Positions 13,919 to 20,318 of a stretch of DNA of 64,000 nt are shown here, in pieces. The stretch lies in assembly GCA_024680055.1 (NCBI GenBank), contig JAILCP010000058.1:62001-126000 (forward strand), given 5' to 3'. How positions within the stretch are numbered: position 1 is the first letter of the stretch; each line of letters starts with the position of its first letter. This DNA is from Lachnospiraceae bacterium. GTDB taxonomy: Bacteria > Bacillota > Clostridia > Lachnospirales > Lachnospiraceae. Below the pieces are notes generated by a model. The model saw only the letters and a program-made list of their open reading frames with translations. It was not told the origin of the DNA and ran no database searches. The position numbers were made by a program, and so were the translations under genes.

Positions 13919-15280
13919 ATGGCAGTCAGATCTACAGAACTAGAACAATTACAGAGCTTGTATGAAGAAAGAGATAATAACCTGGTTTTTGTTTACGGAA
14001 GAAGTAAAATGGAACAGGTGGAATTGATGAATCAATTCACTTTGAAGAAGAAGTCTGTTTTTTACTCCGCCAGTGAATGTTCTAACGATATGCAAAGAGA
14101 ATTCTTTGGAAAGTGTATATCAGATAGCTGTGATGTTTCAATTTTACAGAACGATTATGAGTCACTTTTTAACAGAATTAAAAGTGGAGATGAGACAAAA
14201 CTTGTATTGATTGTTCACCATGTGGAACGTATTATGAAGAAGAACTCGGATTTCTTTGAAGCTATTTTGAAATTAAAAGCAAAGAAATTGTACCCGGGCC
14301 CGGTTATGATTATTTTAATGTCAGAATCCCTGGTGTTTGCAGAGCAGGATTTAGAGGGATTACTGAAAAATCAAATGAAGAAATTTGATAAAATTATTAA
14401 GATATCAGAGTTGAAGTTTCTTGATGTGGTAAGAAAGTTCCCAAGTTTTACAACATCACAGTCTGTGGAAGTCTACGGTATTTTAGGTGGTGTTCCGGGA
14501 TATCTGAATCATTGGGATGCGAAAAAGACCATGAAAGAAAATGTATGCAAACTGGTTTTGGATAAAAACGGACCAATGCATAATGAGGCACATCAATATC
14601 TGGCTGCAGAACTTCGAGAATATGGTGTATATCAGACCATTCTTTCAAGTATTGCATCCGGAAAGGAAAAGTTAAATGATATTTTCCATTACACCGGATA
14701 TTCCAGACCAAAGATCAGTGTCTATATGAAAAATCTTGCTGCTTTTGAGGTAATCAGCAAGGTGTCATCCTTTGAAACCGGAGGTTGGGACAATACAAAG
14801 AAGGGTGTATATCGTATAAGCAATACCTTTTTGAATTTTTATTATCGTTTTGTATTTCCGTATCAGAGTCAGCTTGAGACCATGAAACCGGAAGCGTTTT
14901 ACGATAAATACATTGAGCCTGAAATCGATGGATTTTTAAATCTTACCTTCCAGAAGGTATGTATGGAATTCCTTCAGTTATCCAGCGCAGTGCATCAGTT
15001 GCCGATTGAAATTGTAAAAATCGGTACATGGATTGGAAAACAGGGAACCATTGATATTATTGCCCAGGATAAGATTCGAAATACCATTGTAGGTATGTGC
15101 AGTTGGGCAGAAGACAGCTTCACATACGATATGTATAAAGAACTTCTTGATAATATGGCAGCTGCCAAAGTAAAATCTGACTACAGATATTTGTTCTCAG
15201 CAAAGAAATTTGATGAGACTTTACTTCGTGCTGCAAATCTGGATCCTCGTATCATTATTGTAGACATGAACGAAATGTAA
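13919..15280 (+). CDS. Archaeal-ATPase/DUF234-family protein with degenerate nucleotide-binding motifs
   Basis: Overall layout matches AAA_14/DUF234 ATPases (VYGR..., YGILGGVPGYL, HTH, GVYRISNTFLNFYYRFV, IDIIAQD), but GKT, the Walker B acids and ECK are replaced. Confidence 0.75.
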   Translation: MAVRSTELEQLQSLYEERDNNLVFVYGRSKMEQVELMNQFTLKKKSVFYSASECSNDMQREFFGKCISDSCDVSILQNDYESLFNRIKSGDETKLVLIVHHVERIMKKNSDFFEAILKLKAKKLYPGPVMIILMSESLVFAEQDLEGLLKNQMKKFDKIIKISELKFLDVVRKFPSFTTSQSVEVYGILGGVPGYLNHWDAKKTMKENVCKLVLDKNGPMHNEAHQYLAAELREYGVYQTILSSIASGKEKLNDIFHYTGYSRPKISVYMKNLAAFEVISKVSSFETGGWDNTKKGVYRISNTFLNFYYRFVFPYQSQLETMKPEAFYDKYIEPEIDGFLNLTFQKVCMEFLQLSSAVHQLPIEIVKIGTWIGKQGTIDIIAQDKIRNTIVGMCSWAEDSFTYDMYKELLDNMAAAKVKSDYRYLFSAKKFDETLLRAANLDPRIIIVDMNEM

Positions 15281-15301: not shown

Positions 15302-18300
15302 TTGGGAAAGGCACTCATTATAACTGAGAAGCCATCGGTTGCCAGAGAATTTGCCAGAGTTTTGTCGGTAAAAGGTAACCGAGAGGGCTATATTGAAAAT
15401 GATAAATATGTCATCAGCTGGTGTGTAGGCCATCTTGTAGGGATGGTTTATCCGGAAAGCTACGATGAGAAGTATAAAAAGTGGAGATTGGAAGATCTCC
15501 CTTTTTTGCCTAATAAATATAAGTATGACGTAATTGATGGGGTAAAAGCTCAGTATGGGGTTGTACATGGACTTTTGCACAGAGAAGACATTGATGTTGT
15601 TTATTGGGCAGGCGACGCAGGAAAAGAAGGACAGACCATAGAAGAGAATATTCGTAATTTTGGCGGCGTGAGAGAGGGCATGAAGGAACTGCGTGTCTGG
15701 ATTGATTCTCAGACCGATGAGGAGTTGCTTCGTGGCATTAACGAGGCTAAAGACATGGAAGAATATGCAAATCTGGGGAAGTCCGGTATTATGAGAACCA
15801 TAGAAGACTATGCCATGGGAATTAATTTTTCAAGGGCCATGTCGGTAAAATATGGAAACCTGTTAAACAATGCGGCAGGCACTAAATCCTATACGGCCAT
15901 TGCCATTGGAAGGGTCATGACCTGTGTTCTTGGAATGGTTGTAATCAGAGAGAGAGAAATTCGGGATTTCGAAGGCACTCCATTTTACAAAGTAATAGGA
16001 TCGTTTACAGACCTTGGGATTTTGGGTGAGTTTCGAGCATGTGAAGGCTCGGCTTACTTTGAGTCCTTATTGTTGTACAAAGAAAATGGTTTCAAGAAAA
16101 AAGAAGACGCTCTGGAATTAATCAGTAAGCTGGAAAATAAAACTCCCAAGGTAAAAGAAATTGATATTTTTACAGGAAAGAAAAATCCACAGCTTCTTTT
16201 TAACCTGGCAGAGCTTCAGGCAGAGTGTTCCAAACGATTTAAAATCAGCCCGGAACAGACCCTTGCGGTGGCCCAGACCTTGTATGAAAGAAAGTTGACC
16301 ACCTATCCAAGAACGGATGCAAGAGTTTTAACTGCTGCTGTGGCAAAGGAAATCACCAGAAACATCTACGGAATCAAGGATTTTGAACCGACAAAACAAT
16401 TTGCGAAAACCATTATCGATAACAAATGGTTTCACAACTGTAATAAAAAACCGTACACCGATGATTCCAAGGTAACAGACCACTATGCCATTATTCCAAC
16501 CGGAAATTATAAGGCATATGATGGGCTAAGTTCCCTTGAAAAAGCGGTTTATGAAATGATTGTTCGAAGATTTTTGGCAATCTTTTATCCGCCGGCAGAA
16601 TACGATAACCTGAAAATGGTAACAGAAATGGGAGGGGAACACTTTTTTACCTCTGCAAAGGTGTTAAAAAGCTCCGGCTTTTTGGAAGTCATCGGTAAAA
16701 ATACTTCCGATGAGGAAAATGAAAACGGGGAAGAAGTCAACTCCAAAGAGATTATCGAATTGGCAAGAACACTAAAGGTGGGTGATGAAATTTCCTGCCT
16801 GGGCATGGAATTAAAAGAGGGCGCAACCAAGCCGCCAAAACGTTATACCACAGGAACCATGATTCTTGCCATGGAAAACGCGGGACAATTGATCGAAGAC
16901 GAAGAACTTCGTGCCCAAATAAAGGGTTCCGGAATCGGAACCTCAGCCACCAGGGCGGAAATTATTGCCAAGCTGGTAAGGGTAGGCTATTTGCAATTAA
17001 ATACCAAAACCCAGGTGCTTTCTCCAAGACCTCTTGGTGAAATGATTTATGAGGTTGTGAATTTAACGGTTCCGGCCCTTTTAAATCCTAAAATGACCGC
17101 ATCCTGGGAAAAGGGACTGGACGGTATTACCAATGGAAGTGTGGAATTTGAAAGCTATCGCGAAAAGCTGGAAGATTTTATTCGAAAAGAGACCATGAAC
17201 ATTGTGAACAGTGATCTGAAGGAAGTGATTTCCCAAAAGATTCTGGAATTCACCGATGTAAATAACGGAGGCAGCGTTCCAAGGGTAAAAATCGGTGTTT
17301 CCTGTCCAAAATGCGGCGGAAACATGGTAACCACGCCATTTGGCTACGGCTGTGAAAATTACAATAAAGACGGAAGCGGATGCAATTTTTCCATTGGTAC
17401 CATTGCTTCAAGAACCCTTGGGGTCAATGAGGTGAAGCAACTTTTATCCAATGGGCGTACCGAAGTGCTATCCGGATTTTCCAGTCGTGCAGGGAAAAAG
17501 TTTAAGGCGGCCTTAGTCCTTTCAAAGGACGAAAAGGGGCAGCCGCAGATCAACTTTGAATTTGAAAATGAAGATCCGGTGGAATTAGAGGGAATTACCT
17601 GTCCACACTGTGGTGGAACCCTGTTGAAAATGCCTTACGGATATCGTTGTAAAAATTCCATGGCGACAGAGGAGAATGAAACTGCCACCTGCCGGTTTTC
17701 TGTTGGCAGTATTTGCGGAAAAAAACTAAGTGAGGATCAGTTTTACGATCTGGTGCAAAAGGGAAGAACCGACACCATTCGCGGTTTTAAAAGTAAATCC
17801 GGAAAATCCTTTGATGCCAATCTTACCTTAAAGAAAACAGAAGAAGGCTATCAGATTGCCTTTGATTTTGAAAATGTAAAGGCAAAAGAGGTAAAAGACG
17901 TACAGTGCCCGGTTTGCGGAAAAGCCATGATTGAGGTTCCTTTTGGCTATATGTGCGAAGGACACAAAAAGGATGACGAAAACAGCTGTCCTTTTGTGGT
18001 AGGACAGATATCCGGAAAGAAATTAAGTACCAAACAGTTGAAAAGCCTTTTGACGGAAGGAAAGACGGAGCTGATTGACGGTTTTGAAAGCAAGACAAAA
18101 AAACGTTTTTCCGCAGTGGTAAAGCTGGAAAAGGATGAAAACGGAAGACTGCGACCAACCTTTGATTTTAACGACAGGGAAGCAAGAATGATCGACGATT
18201 TTTTTTGCCCTTTGTGTCATGGGAAAATGATGAAAACTTCCTTTGGTTATGGCTGCAGTAATTACGATCCGAATCAGGAAGACAGCTGCAGATTTTCCAT

Positions 18301-19633
18301 CGGACAGATCGCGGGAAAAAGTCTTTCCCTGGAGGAAGCAAAAGAACTGGTAACTAGGGGCATCACAGGAACCATTCGCGGCTTTAAAAGTAAAGAGGGC
18401 AAGCGCTTTGACGCCTGTTTGAAGCTGGAAAAGGAAGAAAACAACAATCTTCGCATTGTGTTTGATTTTGACCATGTGGAAGCTAAAGAAGTGAAAAACG
18501 TGAAATGTCCGCAGTGCGGAGGAAAAATCATTGAGACTTCTTTTGGTATCGGATGTGCCAACTATAAGAAAGAGGATGAAAACAGCTGTAACTTTAACAT
18601 TGGAAAAATTGCAGGGAAAAAGCTGTCCATGAAGCAGATCACAGATCTTTTAACCTACAAGAAAACCGAACTGATTGAGGGCTTTGAAGGAAAAAGCGGT
18701 AAAAAGTTTGCGGCTGTGGTAAAACTTGTGAAAAACGATCAGGGCATCTACGAGACCACCTTTGACTTTGATGACAAAGAAGCCTATTACATCAAGGACT
18801 TGCTTTGTCCAAAATGCGGCAGGCCAATGATGAAAACCCCGTTTGGGTTTGGTTGCAGCGGCTATGATGCCAATGATGAAGAAAGCTGTAAGTTCTCCAT
18901 AGGCCAGATTGCAGGAAAGACCCTCAGTCTTGATGAGGCAAAAAAACTGGTGAAAGACGGTGTAACAGATACCATTCGAGGCTTTAAGAACAAAGAGGGC
19001 AAACGTTTTGACGCCTGTCTGAAACTGGAAAAGAAAGAGGACGGAGAGGTTGGCATCGGTTTTGACTTTGAACATGTGACAGCCAAGACGGTAAAAGGGG
19101 TGAGCTGTCCACTTTGCGGCGGAGAGATTACCGTAACACCTTTTGGCTATGGATGCTCCAATTACAAAAAAGGAGAGAAGGATAGCTGTAACTTCACCAT
19201 CAATCAAAAAATTGCCGGGGTGAAGATAAAAGAGTCCATGGTAAAACAGCTGCTCACCGACGGAAAGACGGATTTGATTACCGGTTTTAAAGGAAAAAGC
19301 GGGAAAAGTTTTGATGCGGTTTTGGTTCTTGACGGGGATAATGTAAAATTTGAATTCCCGGACGAGGTACAACCGCTGGAAAGCAATATTTTATGCCCGG
19401 TATGTGAATATAAATTAATTCGTACCAAATACAACTACGAATGTGCCTGCGGATTTAAAATATCCCACATGGTGGCACAGTTGGATTTGGATGAATCAAT
19501 CATAAGTGAATTATTGGAAAACGGAAAAACAAAAGAGAAGGTATGCGGTTTCCACAGCAGATCCGGAAACCTTTTTGACGCAAAATTAAAATACGACAAA
19601 GAAGCAGGAATTTCCTTCGATTTTGATTCGTAA
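15302..19633 (+). CDS. topB: Type IA DNA topoisomerase III with eight C-terminal zinc-finger repeat modules
   Basis: TOPRIM N-terminus (KALIITEKPSVAREFARVL), catalytic YPRTDAR motif, followed by repeated CPxCGG...FGYGC.NY...SC.FSIG.IAGK...GFKSKSGK.FDA units; TTG start. Confidence 0.92.
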   Translation: MGKALIITEKPSVAREFARVLSVKGNREGYIENDKYVISWCVGHLVGMVYPESYDEKYKKWRLEDLPFLPNKYKYDVIDGVKAQYGVVHGLLHREDIDVVYWAGDAGKEGQTIEENIRNFGGVREGMKELRVWIDSQTDEELLRGINEAKDMEEYANLGKSGIMRTIEDYAMGINFSRAMSVKYGNLLNNAAGTKSYTAIAIGRVMTCVLGMVVIREREIRDFEGTPFYKVIGSFTDLGILGEFRACEGSAYFESLLLYKENGFKKKEDALELISKLENKTPKVKEIDIFTGKKNPQLLFNLAELQAECSKRFKISPEQTLAVAQTLYERKLTTYPRTDARVLTAAVAKEITRNIYGIKDFEPTKQFAKTIIDNKWFHNCNKKPYTDDSKVTDHYAIIPTGNYKAYDGLSSLEKAVYEMIVRRFLAIFYPPAEYDNLKMVTEMGGEHFFTSAKVLKSSGFLEVIGKNTSDEENENGEEVNSKEIIELARTLKVGDEISCLGMELKEGATKPPKRYTTGTMILAMENAGQLIEDEELRAQIKGSGIGTSATRAEIIAKLVRVGYLQLNTKTQVLSPRPLGEMIYEVVNLTVPALLNPKMTASWEKGLDGITNGSVEFESYREKLEDFIRKETMNIVNSDLKEVISQKILEFTDVNNGGSVPRVKIGVSCPKCGGNMVTTPFGYGCENYNKDGSGCNFSIGTIASRTLGVNEVKQLLSNGRTEVLSGFSSRAGKKFKAALVLSKDEKGQPQINFEFENEDPVELEGITCPHCGGTLLKMPYGYRCKNSMATEENETATCRFSVGSICGKKLSEDQFYDLVQKGRTDTIRGFKSKSGKSFDANLTLKKTEEGYQIAFDFENVKAKEVKDVQCPVCGKAMIEVPFGYMCEGHKKDDENSCPFVVGQISGKKLSTKQLKSLLTEGKTELIDGFESKTKKRFSAVVKLEKDENGRLRPTFDFNDREARMIDDFFCPLCHGKMMKTSFGYGCSNYDPNQEDSCRFSIGQIAGKSLSLEEAKELVTRGITGTIRGFKSKEGKRFDACLKLEKEENNNLRIVFDFDHVEAKEVKNVKCPQCGGKIIETSFGIGCANYKKEDENSCNFNIGKIAGKKLSMKQITDLLTYKKTELIEGFEGKSGKKFAAVVKLVKNDQGIYETTFDFDDKEAYYIKDLLCPKCGRPMMKTPFGFGCSGYDANDEESCKFSIGQIAGKTLSLDEAKKLVKDGVTDTIRGFKNKEGKRFDACLKLEKKEDGEVGIGFDFEHVTAKTVKGVSCPLCGGEITVTPFGYGCSNYKKGEKDSCNFTINQKIAGVKIKESMVKQLLTDGKTDLITGFKGKSGKSFDAVLVLDGDNVKFEFPDEVQPLESNILCPVCEYKLIRTKYNYECACGFKISHMVAQLDLDESIISELLENGKTKEKVCGFHSRSGNLFDAKLKYDKEAGISFDFDS
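17284..19630 (+). repeat. Eight tandem ~300-nt coding repeats (Topo C-terminal zinc-finger/Toprim_Crpt-like modules)
   Basis: First Cys codon of each module at 17303, 17600, 17906, 18206, 18506, 18806, 19106, 19394 (spacings 297, 306, 300, 300, 300, 300, 288). Confidence 0.95.
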
Positions 19634-19652: not shown

Positions 19653-20318
19653 ATGAAACAGTGTGAAATTTGTAATCTTTATGACTTAAATGAAACTTTG
19701 GCAAAACCTTTAATGGAGAAGTATCAATATCCATGGGAAGTGCTGCCAAATATCGGTAAGTTTATTGTAGAACTTGGAAACACTTTGGATTCTGAAATCT
19801 ATGAGAAAAAAGGGGAGGATATCTGGATTGCAAAAAGTGCAAAAATCTATCCAACCGCCAATATCTATGGACCGGCCATTATCGGAGAGGAGACCGAAGT
19901 GAGACCTGGAGCCTTTGTAAGAGGAAATGCCCTGGTGGGAAATCACTGTGTGGTGGGAAATTCCACTGAGTTAAAAAATGTAATACTTTTTAACTGTGTA
20001 CAGGTGCCTCATTACAATTATGTTGGTGACTCCATTTTGGGATACAAATCTCATATGGGAGCCGGAAGTATTACCTCCAACGTGAAATCCGATAAAACCC
20101 TTGTGGTAATCAAGGATGGAAACGAGGAAATAGAAACCGGTATAAAAAAAATCGGAGCCATGCTTGGCAATCATGTGGAAGTGGGATGTAACAGCGTATT
20201 AAATCCGGGTACCGTAATCGGTCAGGACACCAATGTCTATCCCCTTTCCAGTGTGCGCGGGGTGATTCCGGAGCATTCAATTTATAAAGCAAAGGACATG
20301 ATTTGTAAAAAGAGATAA
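19653..20318 (+). CDS. Left-handed beta-helix (hexapeptide repeat) transferase, GlmU-C-like
   Basis: Hexapeptide repeats: IAKSAKIYPTANIYGPAIIGEETEVRPGAFVRGNALVGNHCVVGNSTELKN... Confidence 0.8.
   Translation: MKQCEICNLYDLNETLAKPLMEKYQYPWEVLPNIGKFIVELGNTLDSEIYEKKGEDIWIAKSAKIYPTANIYGPAIIGEETEVRPGAFVRGNALVGNHCVVGNSTELKNVILFNCVQVPHYNYVGDSILGYKSHMGAGSITSNVKSDKTLVVIKDGNEEIETGIKKIGAMLGNHVEVGCNSVLNPGTVIGQDTNVYPLSSVRGVIPEHSIYKAKDMICKKR

Follow-up and report, generated by a model that had tools for sequence, protein, structure and literature searches.

The C-terminal region of the type IA topoisomerases has been described as less covered than their catalytic core (PMC9369019). In the Topo_C_ZnRpt ribbons of topoisomerase I, the aromatic residue located two positions before the third Cys takes part in DNA binding (PMC9369019); for one domain of this type, binding of two consecutive nucleotides has been described (PMC10969213). 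The Toprim_Crpt repeat (PF13342) occurs widely in bacteria and plasmids, and forms the tail of bacterial topoisomerase III (TopIII) and of plasmid TopB, with two modules in a Paraburkholderia plasmid TopB and four in a Brevibacillus plasmid topoisomerase. The DNA analysed here (64,000 nucleotides of a Lachnospiraceae bacterium, hereafter the window) encodes a TopIII in which the same Pfam repeat occupies the same place after the catalytic core, in eight copies. The catalytic core of E. coli topoisomerase III is homologous to that of the window protein, whereas the E. coli control genome gave no PF13342 module. The window tail is real, constrained and extreme in its number of modules, yet it is a known architecture in extended form.

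The topB gene and its catalytic core

The topB gene (15302..19633, + strand, TTG start) encodes a type IA DNA topoisomerase III of 1443 aa. Its catalytic core (aa 1-660, 15302..17281, + strand) comprises a TOPRIM domain with the GDAGKEG motif and a Topoisom_bac domain with the active-site motif TTYPRTD. Both domains scored above their curated cut-offs, with 319.7 bits for PF01131 (E 4e-95, cut-off 35.1) and 26.9 bits for PF01751 (cut-off 23.1), which assigns the protein to the type IA enzymes, and its closest solved structures are those of E. coli topoisomerase III (E about 3e-66), in agreement with the identity proposed by a previous sequence-only reading of this DNA. The catalytic motifs are intact, the active-site tyrosine motif TYPRTD is shared with the full-length tailed relatives, and the TTG start and the N-terminus are also found in the genus mates. 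The scores obtained with the NCBIfam models TIGR01056 (topB; 485.9, cut-off 515.75) and NF005829 (521.6, cut-off 597) were below threshold, suggesting a TopIII relative that falls outside these two curated subfamilies. The window genome also encodes TopA and two GyrA/ParC-family proteins. A search of the genome for RecQ-family helicases gave none above the cut-off, which probably leaves the enzyme without its usual RecQ partner. The best explanation of the gene is a chromosomal, housekeeping topoisomerase III with a lengthened C-terminal tail.

Eight Toprim_Crpt modules in the tail

Residues 668-1443 consist of exactly eight PF13342 modules, each of them carrying a four-Cys ribbon. The whole protein matches PF13342 with an E-value of 1e-162, and the match resolves into eight separate stretches of 65.7-88.7 bits each, for a Pfam cut-off of 32 bits, which establishes the count that the sequence-only reading had drawn from the letters. 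The positions that it gave for the first Cys codons (17303, 17600, 17906, 18206, 18506, 18806, 19106 and 19394) were all correct, in frame and part of a CPxC motif. The intervals between modules are 297, 306, 300, 300, 300, 300 and 288 nt, the five modules described as exactly 300 nt apart corresponding to the four equal intervals. The near-perfect 300-nt periodicity held for the protein and not for a DNA-level array: nucleotide identity among the eight modules is 42-69% and TRF reported no array of about 300 nt, so the periodicity lies at the protein level only. The ribbon reads C-x2-C-x12-C-x(9-13)-C in modules 1-7; the four Cys of each module had been recognised in the previous reading, whereas the central gap, given there as about 11 residues, is 12, and the last gap of module 8 is a single residue. 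The Cys-free Topo_C_Rpt family (PF13368) gave no match on the window TopIII at E up to 1; the modules contain Cys. The net charge of the tail is only about +6, with single modules between -2 and +3.

An aromatic residue precedes the third Cys by two positions in seven of the eight modules, module 5 having an Ile there. The same holds for the 28 tailed proteins considered below, in which 134 of the 137 scored module matches have the four-Cys pattern and 126 of these 134 have Tyr or Phe at this position. In this, the modules resemble the domains D5-D7 of E. coli TopA (Topo_C_ZnRpt, PF01396), with their CPxC...C...C ribbon and a conserved aromatic residue at the same position relative to the third Cys. 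They differ from them in that PF01396 is not reached and that every ribbon is fused to an alpha/beta domain of about 60 aa. Of the two families to which the modules had been likened, Toprim_Crpt and zf-C4_Topoisom, the first was matched, whereas the second (Zn_ribbon_Top1, PF01396) fell short of its 32-bit cut-off on every module: the best score was 13.3 bits (E 0.072) for module 1, and modules 2-8 were not listed at E up to 0.1. The Brevibacillus plasmid topoisomerase bridges the gap between the window modules and the PF01396 ribbons: starting at the first Cys, its four repeats match the profile of the window modules (E 1e-10 to 1e-13), and Pfam gives three PF01396 and four PF13342 stretches on the same protein.

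A module is confidently predicted (pLDDT 86-88) to fold into a ribbon hairpin, a helix and a three-stranded sheet; in the two-module model the relative placement of the modules is uncertain (pTM 0.53). Each module joins a four-Cys ribbon, which would presumably bind zinc, to a small alpha/beta domain of the Toprim_Crpt type. The module is widespread in bacteria and plasmids, yet searches of the solved structures by sequence and by fold, with one- and two-module models, gave no significant E-value for it.

Module relationships and history of the tail

The eight modules, all on the + strand, are not equally related to each other. Modules 4 and 6 share 69% aa identity and modules 3 and 5 share 56%, against about 36-46% for adjacent modules. 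In the module tree, modules 3 and 5 group with module 2 of the five-module genus mates G001 and G002 (support 96/92), and modules 4 and 6 with module 3 of the same proteins (91/95). Trees forcing modules 3 and 4 as sisters were rejected (p-AU 0.005), as were those forcing modules 5 and 6 (p-AU 0.0006). Together, these groupings and rejections indicate the duplication of a two-module cassette of 600 nt, named A-B, with a first copy in modules 3 and 4 (17903..18502) and a second in modules 5 and 6 (18503..19102).

Module 1 (17300..17596) is A-like and falls in one cluster with the first modules of G001/G002 and G062/G796. Module 7 (19103..19390; 95 aa with a shortened end, 88.7 bits) groups with the penultimate modules of the genus mates and of G062/G012 (94/98, weaker in a second module tree), and module 8 (19391..19630; 65.7 bits, ribbon C-x2-C-x12-C-x1-C) with their terminal modules (100/100). 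Since modules 1, 7 and 8 match the modules at the corresponding positions of the relatives (first, penultimate and last), the tail grew inside fixed caps. Module 2 (17597..17902) is B-like, sharing 52-54% identity with modules 4 and 6, but its ancestry is not firmly placed (p-AU 0.495 when held with modules 4 and 6). A perfect A-B alternation over modules 1-6 was considered and dropped for this reason, and only the duplication that links modules 3-4 to modules 5-6 is claimed. The modules fall into types, with a two-module higher-order repeat in the middle of the tail, a feature absent from the sequence-only reading.

In every comparison of modules, paralogous or orthologous, synonymous sites were at or near saturation while nonsynonymous divergence was about 0.2-0.5, indicating that the copies are old and have been kept by selection at the protein level.

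Distribution of the core and of the tails

The TopIII core was found in 147 of 150 sampled Lachnospiraceae genomes, mostly in proteins of 650-750 aa, and most of the TopIII of this family are without modules; strong PF13342 matches (E up to 1e-12) were obtained in 21 of 397 genomes. The long-tailed proteins form one clade (100/99) in the sampled TopIII tree, in which some distant rows stand on long branches, and this clade adjoins the tailless sister G085. Outside the window genus, long-tailed TopIII are found in G055, G062, G187, G221, G796, G962 and others, with a core about 60-70% identical to that of the window protein, the same modules and, in most, the same neighbours, but with 2-6 modules instead of eight. 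The genus mates themselves have five modules (two genomes) or three (four genomes).

Among the 28 tailed proteins counted, three of which are partial, one has two modules, five have three, three have four, nine have five, eight have six and one, the window protein, has eight. The remaining one, G837, was scored as a seven-module protein by the scan; an insertion splits one of its modules, however, and Pfam gives six. An even sample of the phylum gave strong PF13342 matches in 51 of 398 genomes, with one to three matches in all except the window genome, and three plasmid records from outside the phylum, together with the Brevibacillus record, which is a Bacillota plasmid, all have two to four. 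None of the roughly 1,060 distinct genomes sampled exceeded eight. The window tail is thus the longest found, within a group whose tails have two to eight copies and most often five or six, and it differs from the usual PF13342 tails, of one to three modules in the phylum sample, both in number and in the duplicated two-type cassette enclosed by conserved caps. These data are in agreement with the large expansion announced by the sequence-only reading, and the comparison across genomes shows that eight copies are not the clostridial norm. They also provide a natural length series (0, 2, 3, 4, 5, 6 and 8 modules on closely related cores) for the study of the function of C-terminal repeats.

Possible function of the tail

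We propose that the tail is probably a multivalent, zinc-stabilised grip for single-stranded nucleic acid (ssDNA, possibly RNA) carried by a decatenase. The tail has been lengthened through duplication of whole modules of about 100 aa, including one two-module cassette, inside conserved end caps. In each ribbon, one or two bases could stack on the aromatic residue located two positions before the third Cys. At about two nucleotides per ribbon (PMC10969213), eight modules in a row would hold in the order of 16 nt beside the catalytic gate. By analogy, the modules may bind nucleic acid, their aromatic residues being at the base-stacking place of the related topoisomerase ribbons (PMC9369019); given that the module has no significant match among solved structures, this analogy concerns the ribbon half only. 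Strand binding could in turn affect catalysis, by raising the local concentration of the strand at the gate, the affinity or the processivity, or by helping to hold the strand for passage, and the targets might be gaps, forks, precatenanes or RNA. With its low net charge, the tail has no markedly basic surface with which to tether DNA, and this speaks against a simple basic nucleoid tether. The specialised decatenase or nucleoid tether suggested by the sequence-only reading is unsupported, in view of this charge, of the presence of TopA and two GyrA/ParC proteins and of relatives having three modules. Against the strand grip itself, it must be considered that genus mates manage with three modules, and the majority of the family with no module at all.

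The tail could instead be mainly a protein-protein scaffold, its modules binding protein partners (for instance RNA polymerase, SSB or the ATPase encoded next to topB) and not nucleic acid. There is a precedent in E. coli topoisomerase I, whose C-terminal zinc-ribbon tail makes a contact with RNA polymerase, and both the low charge of the tail and the conservation of the adjacent ATPase gene with topB would fit. However, the ATPase is also paired with TopIII that have no tail and so does not track the tail, and the stacking aromatic residue is conserved in the modules, and we regard a scaffold as unlikely.

The strand grip may also be extended to a lineage-wide reading, in which the TopIII of this group of Lachnospiraceae, with no recognisable RecQ, would be a single-strand gripper of adjustable length, the A-B cassette being its unit and the number of modules tuning processivity or targets. 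In this case the A and B modules would follow a set order in their contacts with the strand and with each other. We consider this extension speculative and rather improbable.

The number of modules could also be nearly neutral, repeat recombination adding and removing copies of which one or two suffice. The range of two to eight modules in one clade, and of three to eight in one genus, would be expected in this case, as would the fairly recent duplicate pair formed by modules 3 and 4 of G796 (90% identical, Ks 0.59). The window modules, on the other hand, are ancient, with Ks at or near saturation, and have nevertheless kept the Cys pattern and a constrained protein sequence, while the caps are conserved in place; near-neutrality therefore has a low probability in our opinion.

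RNA can serve as a substrate of type IA enzymes, and some of them need C-terminal motifs for this activity (PMC10969213). Together with the lack of a RecQ-family helicase above the cut-off in the window genome, this would be compatible with a tail that confers topoisomerase activity on RNA, or on both DNA and RNA, or that serves to bind R-loops. RGG boxes or other RNA-specific features were not noticed, and the evidence does not distinguish RNA from DNA; we consider this specialisation very doubtful. Finally, although repeats are a known source of misassembly, a collapsed or inflated array has a negligible probability, the DNA identity between modules not exceeding 69%, a divergence too large for an error of this kind, and multi-module tails recurring in many independent assemblies, including large contigs.

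Neighbouring genes

The topB gene lies in the order asd, DUF234 ATPase, topB, hexapeptide acyltransferase and L,D-transpeptidase, on one strand and with short gaps. The ATPase_2/DUF234-type ATPase gene (13919..15280, + strand; PF03008 E 7e-15, PF01637 below its cut-off) ends 21 nt upstream of topB, with which it probably shares an operon. Downstream, a hexapeptide-repeat sugar acyltransferase-like protein (19653..20318, + strand; Hexapep PF00132) is encoded next to topB in most of the loci examined, tailed or tailless. A phage origin of the tail was considered and rejected: no PHROG family matches it, and the best 'phage' match, MT835504.1 (four modules), is on a contig with the asd-ATPase-topB-acyltransferase order and appears to be a fragment of bacterial chromosome filed as phage. 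A link between the tail and the ATPase, suggested by a first look in which the ATPase stood beside most tailed topB and beside none of eight tailless ones, was dropped when many tailless topB of a wider sample proved to have the ATPase beside them. In 31 of the 50 family genomes with an ATPase match, this gene is no more than about 100 nt away from topB, tailed or tailless, and the two form a conserved gene pair.

The TOPRIM motif in the core of the window's topoisomerase III (TopIII) reads GDAGKEG (15599-15652, residues 100-117 of the topB product). Full-length tailed relatives carry GD[AS]GKEG at this motif, whereas TDSGREG or GDSGREG is found in the sampled tailless TopIII of the family, and therefore the lysine looks characteristic of the clade whose TopIII carry tails of two to eight modules. 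Within the six-module tail of the topB of G796, another tailed Lachnospiraceae genome (locus L059), modules 3 and 4 share 90% protein identity with a synonymous divergence (Ks) of about 0.59; this pair derives from a comparatively recent duplication of a single module.

In the window, a gene for a DUF234/ATPase_2-type ATPase (13919-15280) lies 21 nt upstream of topB (15302-19633). Among the sampled family genomes with an ATPase match, the two genes are about 5-102 nt apart in 31 of 50, and this adjacency was seen for tailed and tailless topB alike. The DUF234 ATPase may be an undescribed partner of TopIII. No RecQ-family match above the cut-off was found in the window's own genome, which is 99% complete, the best score being 40.9 bits against a cut-off of 219.8.

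The unverified GenBank record MT835504.1 (L058, 31872-49643), entitled 'Bacteriophage sp.', contains asd, the ATPase gene, a topB with four modules, an acyltransferase and ABC-transporter-like ORFs, and appears at this end to be a bacterial chromosome fragment. Natural tail-only proteins also exist: plasmid genes of Bacteroides (L081:3296-4132) and Mucilaginibacter (L080:3522-4334) each encode a stand-alone protein that consists of three Toprim_Crpt modules and lacks a topoisomerase core.
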